The translations under genes and the position numbers were made by a program. Of a stretch of DNA of 61,742 nucleotides, positions 4,537 to 51,800 are shown in pieces (positions within the stretch are counted from its first letter, which is position 1; each line of letters starts with the position of its first letter). Source of the DNA: Methanobacteriota archaeon. GTDB lineage: Archaea > Thermoplasmatota > Poseidoniia > Poseidoniales > Poseidoniaceae. The notes below the pieces were generated by a model. That model was not told the origin of the DNA and did not search any database. It saw nothing but the letters and a program-made list of their open reading frames with translations. The DNA lies in the NCBI GenBank assembly GCA_018650165.1, contig JABIGM010000027.1:1-61742 (forward strand), written 5' to 3'.

Positions 4537-5196
4537 TTATTGGTTTGATTTTTGACGGCGAGTCATTTCCGAAGTACCTGTCTCACGCTTACCCTTTGGA
4601 ATCCACAGGGTTTCGTCTTCCCCTAATCTCAGGGTTATCCAGCGTGTTAGAATGAACAGCCAATCCGATAACCGATTTACATATTGCAAAGTGACAGGAC
4701 GGATTTCATCAACAATTCCAACCATTGAACGCTCCAATCTACGAGTTACCGTGCGGGCGAGATGTAATGTTGCAACAGAACCAGACCCGGTTGGCATAAT
4801 AAAACTCTCAAGAGGAGGTAATTCTTCATTCCAAGTATCCATTTCTTCACATAAACGGTCAGAATCTTTCTGGTCAATTAATTCCATGAATTCGGGTAGC
4901 TTATCCGGCGAGCAGGCCAGTTCAGCTCCAAGGTCAAATAATTCACTTTGTAGGCGACCTATTGCAGAAGAACACACGTCCTTTACTCGGCGAACGGTGA
5001 TTCGCTGGCCCCCATCTGCATGGGTATCTGAAATACGGTTTGATTCCATCAATACAAGGCCGAGTAATGCATTGACTTCGTCACATGTGCCAACTATCTC
5101 TATTCGGGTATTGCTCTTTGCAACACGGCTGCCATCTACTAGAGAAGTTTCACCAGAATCGCCGCTCCCGGTATGCACCTTTGTGATTCGGACCAT
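4537..5196 (-). CDS. pduO: ATP:cob(I)alamin adenosyltransferase, PduO type
   Basis: TKVHTGSGDSGETSLVDGSRVAKSNTRIEIVGTCDEVNALLGL and LHLARTVTRRLERS...YVNRLSDWLFILTRW motifs. Confidence 0.92.
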   Translation of the reverse strand: MVRITKVHTGSGDSGETSLVDGSRVAKSNTRIEIVGTCDEVNALLGLVLMESNRISDTHADGGQRITVRRVKDVCSSAIGRLQSELFDLGAELACSPDKLPEFMELIDQKDSDRLCEEMDTWNEELPPLESFIMPTGSGSVATLHLARTVTRRLERSMVGIVDEIRPVTLQYVNRLSDWLFILTRWITLRLGEDETLWIPKGKRETGTSEMTRRQKSNQ

Positions 5197-42858: not shown

Positions 42859-43827
42859 TTGAACCCACGCCTTACACTATTATCGGAACTATTGAAAACA
42901 AGAGTAAATTTACCATTAGTCATGCGAAGCCGAGTTATACTGATTGCATTAGTCCTTGGACTCGCATCAATTCCATCGGCGCAGGGCGGTACTGCGGAAA
43001 AGCTGGAAGATGTGGGTTTTACATTTGGCGGCCTAACTCTAGATGCAAATACAACTGGTAACGCGACTTCTAGTCTCGCAGATTTACCTGCCGTTGTAGA
43101 GTACTATACTGCCACTTGGTGTGCTAATTGCGTCTATGTTGAACATGCTTTAGACGATGTGGAAAATAATAGTGTAAATATCCAACAGTTCCATTTTCAC
43201 CGTGACCAAGATAGTGAAGACCCGTGGGGAACAGCTGAAGGAGAGGCTCGCTGGGACGATAGATACGATGGAGGAGTTGCCCCAACTGTGGTATTCAATG
43301 GTAGCATGAAGCAAATTGGAAGCGTCGCTGAAGGCGATTCACTTGAAGAGGATTACACTGCTTTAGCCGCTATGGATTTAGAACTAGGTGCCGGTGTTTC
43401 TTCCATGGGTTGGAATAATGATTCAGGAGTATTTACCTGGAATCTGCAATTTGATGAAAGCATCATTCCCGAAGATGGTGAATTGGTACACATGCTTTGG
43501 ATTACTGAGAGGTTCGCAAACTTCCCCGATGGTAGTAACGGAGTAGAGAATTATCCTCATGTCGTTAAAGCACTATTTTCACTTGGAAATAATTCTTCTG
43601 GGGCAATGGTAATCGATTTACCTGCAGCACATGATGGCGATGATTTACAGTTGCATCTTATTCATCAAATCGTACTACCTGATTCGGTTGAAGAAAACAA
43701 TAGCCAGCCACCAATTCCAGTTAAATCCGATAACCAAAATGATGGCGGCCTTCCTAGTCTCAGTTTGATTGCAGTACTATCTGTGGTGATGGTTGCAGCA
43801 TTCACTGTGCAGCGAAAGCAGCAATGA
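42859..43827 (+). CDS. Secreted thioredoxin-fold protein with C-terminal membrane anchor
   Basis: Signal peptide (likely start 42922 MRSRVILIALVLGLASIPSAQG); YYTATWCANCVYVEHALDDV; C-term GGLPSLSLIAVLSVVMVAAFTVQRKQQ (sorting-signal-like tripartite end). Confidence 0.78.
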   Translation: MNPRLTLLSELLKTRVNLPLVMRSRVILIALVLGLASIPSAQGGTAEKLEDVGFTFGGLTLDANTTGNATSSLADLPAVVEYYTATWCANCVYVEHALDDVENNSVNIQQFHFHRDQDSEDPWGTAEGEARWDDRYDGGVAPTVVFNGSMKQIGSVAEGDSLEEDYTALAAMDLELGAGVSSMGWNNDSGVFTWNLQFDESIIPEDGELVHMLWITERFANFPDGSNGVENYPHVVKALFSLGNNSSGAMVIDLPAAHDGDDLQLHLIHQIVLPDSVEENNSQPPIPVKSDNQNDGGLPSLSLIAVLSVVMVAAFTVQRKQQ

Positions 43828-44842
43828 TTCGCTCGACATCTTCATCGGTAATATGCAGATGAATTGCTACTCTAACTCTGTTGTAAGGTAGGTCAAACAT
43901 ATCGATTCCATGTTCGGCCAGTGATGCCACTACATCTGCTGCTGGAATGTTACAATTGACATAAACTAAGTTTGATTGGACAGCATCCATATCGACGCTG
44001 AAATTATCCATGGCGTTAATCGCTTCTGCTACCTTTCTTGCCCGAATATGGTCTTCTGCTAGCCTGTCGATGTGATGGTCTAGGGTATAGATTCCTGCTG
44101 CTGCAAGAATCCCTGCTTGCCTCCATCCACCACCAAACATCTTGCGCCAGCGGTGTGCTTTGTTGATGAATTCTCGAGAGCCGACGAGGACAGATCCAAC
44201 TGGGGCGCCAAGACCTTTGGAAAGGCAGATTGAGACCGAATCATAATCACGGCACATTCGTGCCACATCTACACCTGTTGTGATTGCTGCGTTGAAGATT
44301 CTAGCACCGTCAATGTGAGTTGCACAGCCGTTTGCTTTTGCTACTGCTGCAATCTCATCAAGTGCTTCTTGAGTATAACAAGCGCCACCTCCGAGATTAG
44401 ATGTGTTCTCTACACAAACGAGGGTACCATTTGGATAATGTGACCCTGACCCCTCTGCCTTACGAATTGCAGATTTTACCTGGGCTGCGGTCATCAAGCC
44501 GCCTTCGCCTTGAACAAGAGAAATTGATGCTCCGCAAAGTGCAGCATAACCGCCACCTTCGTATTTGTAAATATGAGCGGTTTTGTCACATACGATTTCA
44601 TCGCCAGGAACGGTGTGGGTCCTCAAAGCGATTGCATTAGACATTGTACCGCTTGCAACGAATAGGGCTGCTTCTTTGCCAAACATCTTGGCCAAGCGGT
44701 TTTGAAGTTCGTTAACCGTAGGGTCATCTCCAAGAACATCGTCCCCTACCTCTGCCTTTTCCATGATTGCACGCATTGCCGCAGTAGGCTGTGTGACTGT
44801 GTCACTGCGCACATCAACACGGTCGGAAGGGTACTCGCGCAT
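43802..44842 (-). CDS. Low-specificity L-threonine aldolase
   Basis: VDVRSDTVTQPTAAMRAIMEKAEVGDDVLGDDPTVNELQ; ATHIDGARIFNAAI; ICLSKGLGAPVGSVLVG. Confidence 0.94.
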   Translation of the reverse strand: MREYPSDRVDVRSDTVTQPTAAMRAIMEKAEVGDDVLGDDPTVNELQNRLAKMFGKEAALFVASGTMSNAIALRTHTVPGDEIVCDKTAHIYKYEGGGYAALCGASISLVQGEGGLMTAAQVKSAIRKAEGSGSHYPNGTLVCVENTSNLGGGACYTQEALDEIAAVAKANGCATHIDGARIFNAAITTGVDVARMCRDYDSVSICLSKGLGAPVGSVLVGSREFINKAHRWRKMFGGGWRQAGILAAAGIYTLDHHIDRLAEDHIRARKVAEAINAMDNFSVDMDAVQSNLVYVNCNIPAADVVASLAEHGIDMFDLPYNRVRVAIHLHITDEDVERIIAAFAAQ

Positions 44843-44864
44843 GGTTGGTCCACACCGCTTTCAC

Positions 44865-45245
44865 TCAAAGCAGTTTCAGGTCGCCAGTGATTGCATCAAC
44901 TGCTAAACGCGGAGAAGGGCCAATTCCTAGAACGGTCACTGTCCCCGGGGGGATTTCAGTATGCCCTGCGTCCTTGATTAGTGAGCAGATTAAACTCCCT
45001 TCGAGAGCCTTGGCATACAATTGGCGTAGATGTGATTCATCATCAGCCCGTAGAACAATCTTACGTGCTCCGACCAAGTTCCAGCGTTCATACAAACGCG
45101 CTGCTTTCTTCTTAGCCTTCATAGCACAATCAACCGCTGCATGTGCACACTGTGCGGCTAACTTACCTTTGGATAGTTTGAGATCGTCCCGGGTCACTAG
45201 GACCATTGTGACCTCATCAAGCGGAGATGACATCAGTCTCACCAA
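44865..45245 (-). CDS. pth2: Peptidyl-tRNA hydrolase, archaeal/eukaryal Pth2
   Basis: VLVTRDDLKLSKGKLAAQCAHAAVDCAMKA...KIVLRADDESHLRQLYAKA...TVTVLGIGPSP. Confidence 0.94.
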   Translation of the reverse strand: MVRLMSSPLDEVTMVLVTRDDLKLSKGKLAAQCAHAAVDCAMKAKKKAARLYERWNLVGARKIVLRADDESHLRQLYAKALEGSLICSLIKDAGHTEIPPGTVTVLGIGPSPRLAVDAITGDLKLL

Positions 45246-45876
45246 GTGGTTGTATCTCGTCGATATGAGAAGTCTCTTCGAAGACTAAGTTCGCAAGCCA
45301 AGGAGCTATCCAAACTGCACTAACCACGCTAGCAATAACGTGCATTGCATCAAATGGTAATCCGTTCAGAAGATATATGCCGAATTCAGAAATGGTCATC
45401 CCACTTGTAAAGATAGATAGTGAGACCCACCAGTCAAACATTACAGAAGCGAATATTGCTGAGATTACAAGGCGCTTCATCACGATTTCATTCTGGAATG
45501 CCAAACCAAGACGCGACCCTGCAAATGCGATTGCTGCCCATCCGCTAGCCTGGAATAATGTCCACCAGCCATGAGATAATACTAGATTTGAAATCATAGT
45601 TGCCATCACTGCAAATGCCATTCCACGACGGGCGCCAAGGGTCGCTCCCATTACCAAACACATCACGGTTAGTGGTTGAACATTTGGAAATGGTTCTAGT
45701 AGAATTCGACTTGCTGCTGCTGCTGTCGTGATGCTCGTTAGAACTAAGATTTCTCTCTTTGCAGAGTGTGCTGGTCTACACAAAAGGAAGAATGAAATGG
45801 TTATCAAAACCATGTTGACTACAAGGGATTCGACAGGAGAGAGGGTTGGACCGTGGACTCCGTCTGTTAGTGCCAT
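45217..45876 (-). CDS. ECF-type transporter S component (substrate-binding membrane subunit)
   Basis: 219 aa, ~6 TM; 'LLEPFPNVQPLTVMCLVMGATLGARRGMAFAVMATMISNLVLSHGWWTLFQASGWAAIAFAG' matches the pattern PNVxPxT...G..lG...G......SN...G.G.WT..Q...W...G..AG of vitamin/cobalamin-type S components. Confidence 0.72.
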   Translation of the reverse strand: MALTDGVHGPTLSPVESLVVNMVLITISFFLLCRPAHSAKREILVLTSITTAAAASRILLEPFPNVQPLTVMCLVMGATLGARRGMAFAVMATMISNLVLSHGWWTLFQASGWAAIAFAGSRLGLAFQNEIVMKRLVISAIFASVMFDWWVSLSIFTSGMTISEFGIYLLNGLPFDAMHVIASVVSAVWIAPWLANLVFEETSHIDEIQPLGETDVISA

Positions 45877-45907
45877 GAACAGCGGTAGAGGACTCGAGAC
45901 TTGAACT

Positions 45908-47530
45908 TCACGCTAATGACCAACGTACAACGCTGTCTTCTCCTAGTTCTGCTTGAGAAATTCCTACCGAGGATCTTTTACCATCAATTGTAAACTCCCA
46001 ACCCTCTTCATCATGACCATCAAAAGCAGTCACCCATGTGCCAAAATCATATGACTCCTTAGATATCGAAATGTCCAATTCAGCTGCGGCTATATCGGTG
46101 AATTCCTCGACATTTTCATAGCCACTAAATCCACCAAGGGCTAATTCGCCATCTGGTAATTCGAATACAATAACCTGTGTACCCTGCCATTCATCTGGCC
46201 AAGAAGCATCCCAGTCCTCTTTTGAGTCATTTAGTGTATCAACTTCTTTTGACCATGTGTTGGATACATCTGGCAATATAAAAATCATAATTGCAAGGAG
46301 AAGTAGTAAGCCGACCTTAGTTGCCATTTTGTTATTCTTCTTTATTTGAAAGAAGAACATGGTTAAACATAGAAATATAATCAAGGATTCTTGAAAATAC
46401 GATTTTGATTTTTCAGAATCCGAGTCCTTTGTGATGAGGTCGGGCAAAAATACCATCAGCACTCCATTGTCGTTTCCAAGTGCTAATTCACCACTAGTTC
46501 CAAAGCCTGGGCCTGCCGTTGTATATGTGTCATGAAGGGTATGGAATGTAGTAACTTCAGAACCGGGATAGCCTATTCCCCAGCCGCCGCTAGGAGTGTT
46601 ATTTGGAAACCATATTTGTCCATCTAACTGCATTGTTATCTCGCCGTTAGTATGATAATTAGTTCGCCCCTCTATCGAACAATTTGTTTCACAATTTATA
46701 GAAATGAGATGAGAACTAGTTGCAAAAAATACCTTCTGTCCAACTTTCAACGGGATTGCTGAGGAATATCCTTCTCCAGATAATAATGTATTACCTACAT
46801 AGATTTCTGAGCCATTTGGTGTTTGAAGGTGGGTTATTACTCCGTGATTAGTTTCAATTGGGGCGTGTCTGATTTTTCCTTCCCCAATAGTAATATTGCT
46901 TACCGTGCCTTGTTTGGAAATTATATTGAGAATGCCTTCTTCATTCCCAAGAAGATAGTGTTCTTCGCTGACAGAAACTCCATTCCTCCAACCTAGTTGA
47001 GGTAGGTCTACTCTCAATTCAAGTTCGCCATCATCAAGACAGAAGGTGGACAGCCCTTTGCGAGTAGGAACTACAACTAAATCAGAATCCAATGACATAG
47101 CACCAGTAATACCCCAGGTAATTACTTCTGTTTGTGCAATCCAAATCAACGAACCATCTGTAATGTCCAAAGCTGTGACTCTACCATCGGTCCATCCAAC
47201 TAAAATCATTTCACTCCAATTCCCACAATCCCCTGCGCCTGCTTTGACATGAAGTAGTGGGCTCAAGTCGTGTTGAGTAGAAGTATTGCTGCGATACTTC
47301 CAATTCAACGTTCCTTCGTGTAAATTGTATGAATAAACATGCGGCCTATCTTCCTCTGTCCAAAATCCGGATGTTCTAACAATTACTTGATCTTCAACAA
47401 TAATCGGCTTAGTAGAGATGAAGCCGTTTTCTAAATCTACTTCCCAAGAAGAATCATTTTCTACAGAACCTGAAGAAGGTGGGATGAGCAGACAGAATAG
47501 TAGTCCGACCAAAACGATACAACGTTTCAT
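45908..47530 (-). CDS. Secreted PQQ-type beta-propeller with two TM helices and C-terminal transcobalamin-like (DUF4430-like) domain
   Basis: Signal peptide; propeller repeats (LNWKYRSN, VTALDITDGSLIWIAQTEV, LSTFCLDDGELELRV); TMs SLIIFLCLTMFFFQI and VGLLLLLAIMIFILP; C-term FGTWVTAFDGHDEEGWEFTIDGKRSSVGISQAELGEDSVVRWSLA. Confidence 0.72.
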   Translation of the reverse strand: MKRCIVLVGLLFCLLIPPSSGSVENDSSWEVDLENGFISTKPIIVEDQVIVRTSGFWTEEDRPHVYSYNLHEGTLNWKYRSNTSTQHDLSPLLHVKAGAGDCGNWSEMILVGWTDGRVTALDITDGSLIWIAQTEVITWGITGAMSLDSDLVVVPTRKGLSTFCLDDGELELRVDLPQLGWRNGVSVSEEHYLLGNEEGILNIISKQGTVSNITIGEGKIRHAPIETNHGVITHLQTPNGSEIYVGNTLLSGEGYSSAIPLKVGQKVFFATSSHLISINCETNCSIEGRTNYHTNGEITMQLDGQIWFPNNTPSGGWGIGYPGSEVTTFHTLHDTYTTAGPGFGTSGELALGNDNGVLMVFLPDLITKDSDSEKSKSYFQESLIIFLCLTMFFFQIKKNNKMATKVGLLLLLAIMIFILPDVSNTWSKEVDTLNDSKEDWDASWPDEWQGTQVIVFELPDGELALGGFSGYENVEEFTDIAAAELDISISKESYDFGTWVTAFDGHDEEGWEFTIDGKRSSVGISQAELGEDSVVRWSLA

Positions 47531-49521
47531 CAGGAATGCCTCTGAATAACTTCGCGTAATAGTGCACTTACCTGTTTACCATCAGCGACACCGCCGCATT
47601 CTTTCATTACCAAACCCATCAATGGTCCCAAAGCACCCATGCCTCGCTCCTTTACAAAATCAATTCTGCTTTCTACAACCTTCTCAACAATAGCGAGTAG
47701 GTCTCCTGAATCAGCAGGCTTTATTCCCAGTTCTTCTGCTTTGTTAGCGAGTTGGTCCATGCTTGGATTTTCGCCTGCAAATTCTTCCATCAGAGTAGAC
47801 ATTCCTTCTCTTGTAACGTGTCCTGCTTCTTTTGCAGCGAGTACTAAGGCCATCAGTCCGATTTCTCCGTTGTTCTCCAAAAGCATGGTAGCCCAAGCTT
47901 TTGCCGGAAGGCCGCTATTATGGGCGACGAAATAATCGTCCAATTCTCTGGATAGAAGCTGTTTCATTTGGTCTTCACTAATTGAAAAGGTTCCAAGTCT
48001 TTCCAATCTTTCAGATTGTGTCATCGGAAGGTTGTTGATGACTTTCTCCCAATGCTGAGAAGTAATTGAGTAGGGAGGGATATCCGTTTCAGGGTACATC
48101 CTAGCACCGCCCGGTAGTGGGCGCATTGGAGTTGTAGTCCCGTCCTCTGGAGATCCTTTTTTGATTACTACATTTCGAACTTCTTGTGAGATTCTCTCAA
48201 ACGCCATTCTTGCCCTATTGAGGACGCTTTCTAGAGCGAGTTCGGCTTGCCACCTAGGCGCTAGGCACAGTACAAAGGCATCTACCCCATTGAGGCACTC
48301 TCTTGCAGCATCGACAAATTCTTGCTCGATTCCATATGCCGGGAGTTCATCAGAATGGAATACTCCTGCAACACCTGCAAGTTTTGCTGCACCTGCAAGT
48401 TCTCTTCCTAAACGAGGCAACTGGGCTCCGTCTTCATCAAATTCTTTGACTCCTATCAAACCATTAAACCCTGGTAAAGGTAAAGCCAGCATTATTGATT
48501 TGGATTCTAAACCTGATTTTACCATTTTTGAATCACAACTTGTGAAAGCATCACTAACATCGATTAACTCTAACCCTAGTATCTGTGAAACTTCATCTGT
48601 AACATTTGGAGATTCTACTCGCCTATCTGGCGATAAAACGGGAAGTCCGTGTGCTGCTCTCAATTGATTAGCAAGACGGTAAAAATGAAGTTGCCTAGCC
48701 ATTTCACAACGGATGATTTTGGGAATCCAATCTAGATCTTGGCACCCTTTGATTTCAACTCTATCGCCACACATTATTGAGACGTTGAGGTCCTGTCGAA
48801 TACTTCCCAGTCCCCTTCTTACTCGGCGTGTGTCTCGAAGTGTTCTACCCAATGCAATCGAAGTTTGTTTTGCGTGGTCTGGAGTTTTTACATCTGGCGC
48901 AGTTGCGATTTCAATTAATGGAATGCCGAGCCTATCCAAATTCCAAGTTACTATTTCACCATCCGGAGTTAGTTCGTTATCCAACTTGCGAGCACTGTCT
49001 TCTTCTAAACAAAGTACATCGATTCCAACAGGGCCTCCCTCCGTCTCCAATACCCCATCTGTGGCTACTAGTGTAGTGCGCTGAAAACCACTTGTATTTG
49101 AGCCGTCTACTACGGTCTTACGCATGGTTTGTAGAAGTGGTACAGGATGCGCCCCAATCATTCCAGAAACCGTTAGCGAGATATCTAATGCATCCTTATC
49201 ATGGATTAATGGTGGTTGTTCATCAAGTTCAATTAAACCAGCATTAGGTGATTGACAATATACGAATGAGCGATTTCGACGCGCTTCAAATCTAGCTGCA
49301 ACATCTATTGCTCCGCCTTCGCCGCTAGCTGAGCGGAGGCGGCGGTTGTATTTGGGCCAGTTTTTTGGAAGGGTGTCTATTGTTACATCATGAAGTTCGC
49401 CTGGTTGGCGCGAGTGTAGTTTGCCAGTCGCCAATTGCTGATGAACCTCGATTCCGCACATGAAACCAAGATTTTCAGGATCCAGTGATGCAGGGGTTGC
49501 CACATTACCTTCCGGTTCCAT
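47530..49521 (-). CDS. gatE: Glu-tRNA(Gln) amidotransferase subunit E
   Basis: GFMCGIEVHQQLATGKLHSRQPGEL; CQSPNAGLIELDEQPPL; GLGSIRQDLNVSIMCGDRVEIKGCQDLDWIPKIIRCEM; GAD and YqeY-like C-terminal domains. Confidence 0.95.
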   Translation of the reverse strand: MEPEGNVATPASLDPENLGFMCGIEVHQQLATGKLHSRQPGELHDVTIDTLPKNWPKYNRRLRSASGEGGAIDVAARFEARRNRSFVYCQSPNAGLIELDEQPPLIHDKDALDISLTVSGMIGAHPVPLLQTMRKTVVDGSNTSGFQRTTLVATDGVLETEGGPVGIDVLCLEEDSARKLDNELTPDGEIVTWNLDRLGIPLIEIATAPDVKTPDHAKQTSIALGRTLRDTRRVRRGLGSIRQDLNVSIMCGDRVEIKGCQDLDWIPKIIRCEMARQLHFYRLANQLRAAHGLPVLSPDRRVESPNVTDEVSQILGLELIDVSDAFTSCDSKMVKSGLESKSIMLALPLPGFNGLIGVKEFDEDGAQLPRLGRELAGAAKLAGVAGVFHSDELPAYGIEQEFVDAARECLNGVDAFVLCLAPRWQAELALESVLNRARMAFERISQEVRNVVIKKGSPEDGTTTPMRPLPGGARMYPETDIPPYSITSQHWEKVINNLPMTQSERLERLGTFSISEDQMKQLLSRELDDYFVAHNSGLPAKAWATMLLENNGEIGLMALVLAAKEAGHVTREGMSTLMEEFAGENPSMDQLANKAEELGIKPADSGDLLAIVEKVVESRIDFVKERGMGALGPLMGLVMKECGGVADGKQVSALLREVIQRHS

Positions 49522-49561
49522 GTTACCACCTGTGTTGACTCCTCAATATGAGCGCATCGTT

Positions 49562-51676
49562 TCAGACTGGCTGTAGAGTCTCATATCCGCCGGGCCGCAT
49601 GAGTCTTCCATCTCTGCACAGCGCGTCGATTAGGTCCTCTGCAACATCTCTACTGATGTCACTACGGCCTGCTTCGGTCAAAACATCGTTCAGAGACACT
49701 ATTTCTCCAGTTTCAACATGTAATCTTCGAACGATTTCAAGAATTGCTCGCTCACGATTTCGGGCTGTCGCTTTCTTTCCGGATTGAAGAGTTGTTTCGT
49801 CAAAATTTTCACCCATCAATTCATGCCGCCATAATTTTGTAAGACGGATTGAACGTTCTGCATCCTCAATAGTTGCTTCTTCTGATAAACGCACCCTTGC
49901 TGAAGCTTGAGCTAATCGGTAAAGACCTTCAATTGCTCTTGCAGAAATTGCAATCGAATCGAATGACTCTCCACCTTTTCTTCTAGTTTCAACATAGTAT
50001 TCTCTAAGTGCATTTTGCGCATCTGATGTTAGTTGTGGGTGGATTGTGCGTTTGGCTAATGCAATGTACTTTCTAATTAAATCACGATTTACAATTCCTT
50101 CTTTTTTATTGAACCCTTCAAATGCCGCTGTTTTTGTAGGGTCGACTGCGCTGCCTTGGTCGATTAATATCTCAGGAGTTGAATCCGCTCGATTATTCAT
50201 GATGTGGTTTGCAATTCTTGTATCATGGTCTTCAGCAGGTTGATCGGTTAGTAACCAAATTACATCAAATCGTGAAATCAATGCCGGCTTGAGATTGATT
50301 TGTTGGGTAAATGGCACCTCGGAAACAGATTGGAATCTCCCTGCTTTGGGGTTTGCTGCGGCTAGAATTGCGCAGCGGGTAGAGAGTGTTGCATTGATTC
50401 CTGCTTTCGATATTGAGATTCTCTGTTGCTCCATGGCCTCGTGCATTGAAGAGCGATCGTTTTCATTCATCTTATCGAATTCGTCAATAGCAGCTAATCC
50501 AAGGTCGGCTAAAGCAAGTGCACCTGCCTCTAAGGTCCAACGGCCATCTGCGGCTGCATCCTGAACGGCAGCTGCAGTTAATCCAGCGGCAGAGGCTGAC
50601 ATTCCAGATGTGAAACGGCCACGGGGTGAAATTTGTGACATGTAAGACAACAATTGAGATTTAGCGACACCGGGGTCTCCCATGAGCAAGATGTGGATAT
50701 CCCCGCGCAGTCTAGTCCCATCTTTTGCCTTAGATGCAACTCCTCCGAAAAGTTGTAACATCAGCGATTCTTTCTGGCGACTCATTCCAAAAATGGATGG
50801 TGCTATTGAATTTGTTAACAATTCATGAATGTCGTCGCGGCGTGCGAGTTCTTTGATTTCGTGTTCATCTTCTTCAGAAATTTGGATTTCTTCCAAAGGA
50901 ATATTTTCTCTCTGAATACTATGGATTCTCAAAAATATATCAAAAATTGGAGTTTCTTTTCCTGATTTGCGTTGTGACCGTACAAATAACATCCCATTGA
51001 CTGTAACTCGGTCACCAGGATTTAGTTGGCCTGCTAAATCATGCTCTGTAATACAGAGAATCCTTTCAGGTTGTACGCCTCCTCGCAAATTTTCTGGTGG
51101 CTCTTGTAATTCAATGAATTGTGTGTTGATTAAAATTGAGTCTTCGACCCTCTGAACGAATCTAGTTTGTCCTTTACGCCTACCGCACCCACCTTCAATT
51201 TCAAAACATTCAATCGGTTCAATCAATTCTTGCTCGTTAGGTTGGCTAACTCTAGTTGAATGTCCACACGCCACACAAACAAATGAGCCTTCATAAGTTC
51301 TCGGAAGTACACTACCGATTTTGGTTGCAATGGCATCCACTGAAATCATCGAACCCAAATCTTCGCTTCGAAGTTGACGAACTGTTCGATGAGAATCTGA
51401 AGGTAGTTCAATTATTCGGACAAATGCGACTATACGCGGAGAACCCAATTCGGAAAGCAGTAAGCCTAGTGCCTGGTTTGCTGCCTGCGTGTTGTTTTCA
51501 GGCTCTTCGACTATCGAAAGAGCAAAATCCGGATCAAAAGATTCGATGTCTCGGTATGAGATTTCTAGTGATTGAACATCTGGCCATGATACTTCCAAAT
51601 TGTGAATAGATTCACTGTAATTGTCAAGAAGTAGTGAGCGCCATCTTGCAGGTAGGTCAAATTCTTGAATTGTCAT
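49562..51676 (-). CDS. mcm: Replicative minichromosome maintenance helicase
   Basis: Zinc site CVACGHS...ECFEIEGGCGRR; Walker A MGDPGVAKSQLL; FTSGMSASAAGLTAAA; AIDEFDKMNENDRSSMHEAMEQQRISISKAGI; ISRFDVIWLL. Confidence 0.97.
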   Translation of the reverse strand: MTIQEFDLPARWRSLLLDNYSESIHNLEVSWPDVQSLEISYRDIESFDPDFALSIVEEPENNTQAANQALGLLLSELGSPRIVAFVRIIELPSDSHRTVRQLRSEDLGSMISVDAIATKIGSVLPRTYEGSFVCVACGHSTRVSQPNEQELIEPIECFEIEGGCGRRKGQTRFVQRVEDSILINTQFIELQEPPENLRGGVQPERILCITEHDLAGQLNPGDRVTVNGMLFVRSQRKSGKETPIFDIFLRIHSIQRENIPLEEIQISEEDEHEIKELARRDDIHELLTNSIAPSIFGMSRQKESLMLQLFGGVASKAKDGTRLRGDIHILLMGDPGVAKSQLLSYMSQISPRGRFTSGMSASAAGLTAAAVQDAAADGRWTLEAGALALADLGLAAIDEFDKMNENDRSSMHEAMEQQRISISKAGINATLSTRCAILAAANPKAGRFQSVSEVPFTQQINLKPALISRFDVIWLLTDQPAEDHDTRIANHIMNNRADSTPEILIDQGSAVDPTKTAAFEGFNKKEGIVNRDLIRKYIALAKRTIHPQLTSDAQNALREYYVETRRKGGESFDSIAISARAIEGLYRLAQASARVRLSEEATIEDAERSIRLTKLWRHELMGENFDETTLQSGKKATARNRERAILEIVRRLHVETGEIVSLNDVLTEAGRSDISRDVAEDLIDALCRDGRLMRPGGYETLQPV

Positions 51677-51800
51677 AGTAATCTCCCCAACCAGACACCT
51701 TGAGCCGTTGTCGACCCTCTATAATGATTGAGTCTGTACTTTTCTTCCCCTTCATTTCCACTGGAATCTAATCGCATCACATAACCTCCACTGGCTTCCA

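Follow-up and report, generated by a model that had tools for sequence, protein, structure and literature searches.

The stretch of DNA analysed here (the window, 61,742 nucleotides) belongs to the Marine Group II archaea (MGII; Poseidoniales), and the genome from which it comes is 80% complete. On its minus strand, gatE, a gene for a 540-aa protein, a gene for a 219-aa S component and pth2 form a tightly packed run. The open reading frames of the two middle genes are 31 nt apart, and the stop codon of gatE shares bases with the ATG of the 540-aa gene (TGATG). With regard to riboswitch control, no Rfam match was found within 43500..51800 at E<=0.5. The features discussed below are:

47530..49521, minus strand: gatE, the upstream housekeeping neighbour (Pfam GatB_N and GatB_Yqey), its stop overlapping the receptor start
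45908..47530, minus strand: 540-aa putative surface receptor with signal peptide, propeller, transmembrane (TM) hairpin and DUF4430 domain (Pfam, AlphaFold2 (AF2) model, order-wide conservation)
46448..47446, minus strand: propeller domain, residues 29-361 (PQQ_2, E=9.3e-15; nearest PDB folds are designed propellers and BamB)
46235..46423, minus strand: TM hairpin, residues 370-432, with a KKNNK turn (AF2 helices, hydropathy)
45911..46198, minus strand: DUF4430/transcobalamin-like domain, residues 445-540 (Pfam E=8.8e-5; profile match to 4kki at 3e-5; fold search)
45217..45876, minus strand: 219-aa CbrT-like ECF S component (DUF6580 at 2.6e-9; 6fnp_A at 8.2e-9 with the single sequence and 5.6e-30 with a profile)
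44865..45245, minus strand: pth2, the downstream housekeeping neighbour (Pfam PTH2, E=2.8e-40)
4636..5175, minus strand: matched stretch of a PduO cobalamin adenosyltransferase (PF01923, E=2.3e-47), about 40 kb from the pair

The architecture that the preliminary description proposed for the 540-aa protein (a signal peptide, a propeller and two TM helices, followed by DUF4430 at the C-terminus) was recovered by Pfam, AF2 modeling and hydropathy. The full-length AF2 model (pLDDT 86.8) comprises a signal helix at residues 2-14, the propeller at 29-361, helices at 370-396 and 400-432, and the C-terminal domain at 445-540. Hydrophobic segments at residues 378-396 and 402-420 flank the KKNNK sequence. 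Because of the signal peptide and this basic turn, both globular domains, the propeller and DUF4430, should face the outside of the cell. Pfam recognizes the propeller as PQQ_2, and the PDB structures closest to its model are designed propellers and BamB. We did not name it a PQQ enzyme, given that fold and the fact that the PQQ_2 model aligns only in part. Homology to BtuG was likewise set aside, as BtuG was not among the top 50 fold matches listed.

The DUF4430 model (PF14478) matches residues 492-539 with E=8.8e-5 and 23.3 bits, slightly below the cut-off of 23.8; three relatives (L069, L072, and L074) exceed this cut-off. A profile of the C-terminal domain matches haptocorrin (3e-5) and transcobalamin-2 (1e-3). 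We also modeled residues 426-540 separately with AlphaFold2 (pLDDT 87.8) and compared the model with the PDB using Foldseek. There were 19 matches at E<=0.001, 17 of them to transcobalamin, haptocorrin or intrinsic factor and the remaining two to two chains of 3u7z. The profile and fold searches, together with the Pfam match just short of its cut-off, bear out the earlier assignment of this domain to the DUF4430/transcobalamin group, with the beta-grasp fold of the transcobalamin C-terminus.

This fold is common to the MGII receptor and to transcobalamin, haptocorrin and intrinsic factor. Transcobalamin and intrinsic factor carry an N-terminal alpha/alpha barrel, whereas the MGII receptor is prokaryotic and has a propeller and a membrane anchor instead. 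Joining a propeller to DUF4430 is unusual for a receptor, as suggested previously, but it is not unique because a bacterial DUF4430-propeller fusion is known from Clostridium (PMC1796856). Another propeller protein that acts outside the cell and has a link to B12 import is BtuG of Bacteroides (PMC6143338). However, BtuG is a lipoprotein with seven blades and pairs with BtuB, whereas the propeller of MGII resembles BamB and is tethered by a TM hairpin.

The only Pfam match of the 219-aa protein is DUF6580 (PF20221; E=2.6e-9, 38 bits against a cut-off of 27). Searched against the PDB as a single sequence, it matches chain 6fnp_A (8.2e-9), and a profile built from 18 relatives matches the same chain at 5.6e-30 and no other. 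The ECF S component expected at this position is therefore a homologue of CbrT, a B12-specific S component. Hydropathy indicates several TM segments, and the homology to 6FNP covers the whole domain. An alignment of the S proteins has an invariant Arg57, with His179 kept in 98%; it contains no invariant cysteine, and a cobalt-ligating cysteine of the BtuM type was rejected on this basis. The structure 6FNP shows ECF-CbrT, which transports vitamin B12 in Lactobacillus delbrueckii; the S component of this transporter has a high affinity for both cobalamin and cobinamide (PMC5997447).

The pairing of the two genes is conserved across the Poseidoniales, as anticipated in the preliminary description. 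The S protein occurs in 102 of the 107 genomes and the DUF4430 domain in 104. DUF4430 lies directly upstream of the S gene on the same strand in 94/102 S-bearing genomes, with 34-161 nt between the matched stretches, and chance adjacency was rejected given the constancy of strand and order. Five of the eight exceptions belong to one genus (g12), with 2.1 kb between the genes; in one genome each, the domain is on another contig, no domain was found, or the gap is 9.8 kb. The propeller fusion is present in most loci examined in family f1. In f2, genera g12 and g14 have it, and three loci (L072, L073, and L076) encode a short DUF4430 protein without a propeller.

The genomic context is one of corrinoid demand. 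PduO is found in 102/107 Poseidoniales genomes and was confirmed within the window. B12-binding domains occur in 59 of 60 Poseidoniales genomes and CbiC in none of the 60. Because B12-binding mutases are present and this marker of de novo corrin synthesis is absent, we read the Poseidoniales, from their gene content, as corrinoid-dependent auxotrophs; MGII have been described as B12 auxotrophic (PMC9296465). The window's genome encodes an IcmF-like fused mutase, as well as a B12-binding mutase subunit next to MeaB. The IcmF-like protein (L194:1713-5186, minus strand, 1157 aa) has B12-binding, MeaB and methylmalonyl-CoA mutase domains. The supposition that a canonical BtuFCD is lacking also held, in that no FecCD/BtuC permease match was found in the window's genome; FecCD scores above the cut-off in just 15 of 107 Poseidoniales genomes. 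The pair is the sole candidate for corrinoid import found in most of the genomes examined. As a separate observation, many genomes in both families have PduO on one contig with the S gene (for example, G061:C32, G268:C44, and G150:C18), and the distance between the two is conserved over a long range, at about 40-45 kb.

We conclude that the two genes probably encode a pair of proteins with which Marine Group II archaea capture and import cobalamin/corrinoids. A CbrT-type S component and a transcobalamin-like domain are unrelated, and both point to B12, so that a corrinoid is well supported as the predicted ligand. In the scheme we propose, the TM hairpin would anchor the 540-aa protein and display its BamB-like propeller and transcobalamin-like DUF4430 domain outside the cell. 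DUF4430, perhaps together with the propeller, would capture and concentrate corrinoid at the surface, and the receptor would hand the corrinoid on to its neighbor, the CbrT-like S component, for movement across the membrane. Once imported, the corrinoid could be adenosylated by PduO and supplied to AdoCbl-dependent mutases.

CbrT of L. delbrueckii resembles this system in its homologous S component, PduO, B12 auxotrophy and a neighboring second gene (PMC5997447). However, CbrT works with EcfT/EcfAA', whereas the window's genome and most of the order have no recognizable module. The Pfam EcfT model has no match in the listed genomes of f1, f2 and f3, and it also misses the T domain of genus g12. 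In all five g12 genomes, a fused EcfT-EcfA-EcfA' gene lies between the receptor and S genes (L074:3222-5183, plus strand; also L185, L186, L187, and L188). Its 653-aa product has two ABC ATPase domains preceded by an N-terminal domain. This domain is recognized by an EcfT profile (8e-9 to 2e-10), and it has two Arg-Gly motifs that align with those of EcfT. The X-Arg-X motifs of EcfT anchor its coupling helices (PMC10368641). Judged from these domains, we read the protein as a fusion of EcfT, EcfA and EcfA', and it links the receptor to the module and the S component within the order itself.

When the EcfT profile was extended to include g12, the g12 proteins scored 6e-71 to 2e-75, and no credible EcfT was found at E<=1 in the other 102 Poseidoniales genomes. 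The one weak match (0.003) among them is an 81-aa frame with stops, and the single-contig genome G015 (96% completeness) also lacks an EcfT by this profile. A complete ECF transporter (EcfT plus EcfA/EcfA') was found neither in the window's genome nor in 101 other Poseidoniales genomes. Of the module genes for which the preliminary description proposed a genome search, EcfT was recognized within the Poseidoniales in g12 only, where it lies inside the operon, and no EcfT was recognized in the window's genome.

The AxxxA motif of TM1 has a role in docking. In its strict form it occurs in 9 of 12 module-bearing S proteins versus 16 of 136 others. Its loss is suggestive and was not taken as proof of module loss, as 13 of 85 Poseidoniaceae S proteins retain it and the rows are not independent. 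In the S gene tree, f1 forms one clade and g12 another. Since the tree does not resolve how f1, f2, g12 and the full-operon clade branch from one another, it does not settle whether the module was lost or gained.

Elsewhere in the phylum, relatives of the pair are found in complete operons. Those of L081 and L082 encode a propeller, DUF4430, EcfT, EcfAA' and S; in L086, propeller genes precede DUF4430, EcfT, EcfAA' and S; and L090, L091 and L092 encode a DUF4430 protein, EcfT, EcfAA' and S. The EcfT and ABC domains were identified by Pfam in L081 and by profile and gene order in the others. The Poseidoniales pair is closely related to these complete EcfT/EcfAA' operons, and the S tree groups the f3, f5 and f16 proteins apart from those of Poseidoniales and the full operons. 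Family f16 combines S with DUF4430 in a single ORF of ~340-380 aa (L087:5381-6415, L094:4796-5893, and others), and such a fusion argues directly that the two function jointly. The 344-aa fusion of L087 matches DUF6580 at 2.8e-20 and DUF4430 at 2.1e-17 (Pfam), and genomes with the fusion are mostly without an EcfT match. In the phylum as a whole, only 11 of 134 genomes with DUF6580 have an EcfT match (Pfam model), all 11 outside f1-f3, and module-less pairs thus look widespread.

How the pair would be energized is less clear-cut than its predicted ligand. Since no ECF module is recognizable in the window's lineage, the S component may function by itself, an ability that BtuM and some BioY possess (PMC6072759; PMC11109136). 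Both share the S-component fold and occur in organisms without an ECF module, but by sequence they belong to another family than the MGII S proteins. BtuM also uses a cysteine as cobalt ligand, whereas the MGII S proteins have no invariant cysteine, and the BtuM literature consulted describes no accessory receptor, whereas the MGII S component has a putative one next to it. We tentatively suggest, at rather less than an even chance, an order-wide two-protein corrinoid importer without an ATP motor, which would have arisen by loss of the EcfTAA' genes, with the gene surviving in one genus. Net import would then be driven by high-affinity capture outside and by adenosylation or enzyme binding inside. 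We advance this reading only tentatively because BtuM and some BioY work alone but solitary CbrT does not: cells with the CbrT of L. delbrueckii failed to grow when its module was missing (PMC5997447). The same dependence speaks for an importer with this pair and ligand that is energized in trans, either by an unrecognized, highly divergent module of the ECF type or by a different ABC ATPase encoded elsewhere in the genome. ECF systems commonly share modules (PMC5997447), and the failure of the Pfam EcfT model on the g12 domain illustrates how divergence can hide one. However, the g12-inclusive profile also came up empty in 102 genomes, the single-contig one among them, and we consider a module acting in trans rather unlikely.

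It is improbable that the pair handles some other ligand, such as a different cofactor or a complex of cobalt. Burroughs et al. pointed out that archaea having such proteins are often B12 producers and may be scavenging a different compound (PMC1796856), and the S component of L081 matches a riboflavin-type S family slightly better than DUF6580. Riboflavin S family matches in some full operons, such as this one, indicate that specificity may vary across the wider group. In contrast, PduO and B12-dependent enzymes are present in the Poseidoniales but CbiC is not, the nearest solved S component is the B12-specific CbrT, and the B12 signal comes from two unrelated domains. We give very little credence to the idea that the S component acts purely as a sensor or a binding partner and has no part in import. 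The S-component fold is also known from sensor proteins (PMC11109136) and no motor was found, but Pfam detects no cytoplasmic signaling domain in the 219-aa protein, and this role would leave most of the order without an identified corrinoid importer.

The capture-and-import pair has a precedent. Extracellular DUF4430-type (SLBB) proteins in CbiO/CbiQ operons were proposed in 2007 to scavenge B12 (Burroughs et al., PMC1796856). They share with the MGII receptor a secreted domain, ECF-type partners in relatives, a propeller fusion (in their case reported from Clostridium) and the predicted B12 scavenging. The linkage of DUF4430 to ECF systems was thus already predicted, and the MGII pair is a variant of it. 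It differs in the TM hairpin between propeller and DUF4430 and in the lack of ATPase/EcfT genes in most of the Poseidoniales. In the literature searched, which was largely open-access, we found no description of the MGII pair or its lack of a module, nor of the intermediate in g12 or the fusion of S with DUF4430. If the proposed function is correct, the B12 uptake proteins of these ocean-surface archaea can be named, and the pair could serve as a marker of B12 demand in ocean data. The complete operon, the fused module, the absence of a module and the fused S-DUF4430 protein would also provide a natural series in which to test motor-less S function.

Several additional features were observed near such loci. 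Separate propeller proteins of related operons (L081:9018-10907, L082:8937-10622, and L088:2415-4229) have a weak N-terminal DUF4430-like stretch, which suggests that propeller and DUF4430 may have been joined repeatedly and in both orders. In family f3, two large secreted proteins follow the S-DUF4430 pair (L079:3-4732; L080 has the same layout), and those of L079 belong to the clostripain and subtilase families (Pfam). In the window, a gene near the operon but on the opposite strand (42859..43827, plus strand) may encode a secreted protein of thioredoxin type with a TM segment at its C-terminus; it has a CANC motif and a weak Pfam Thioredoxin match (E=0.21).
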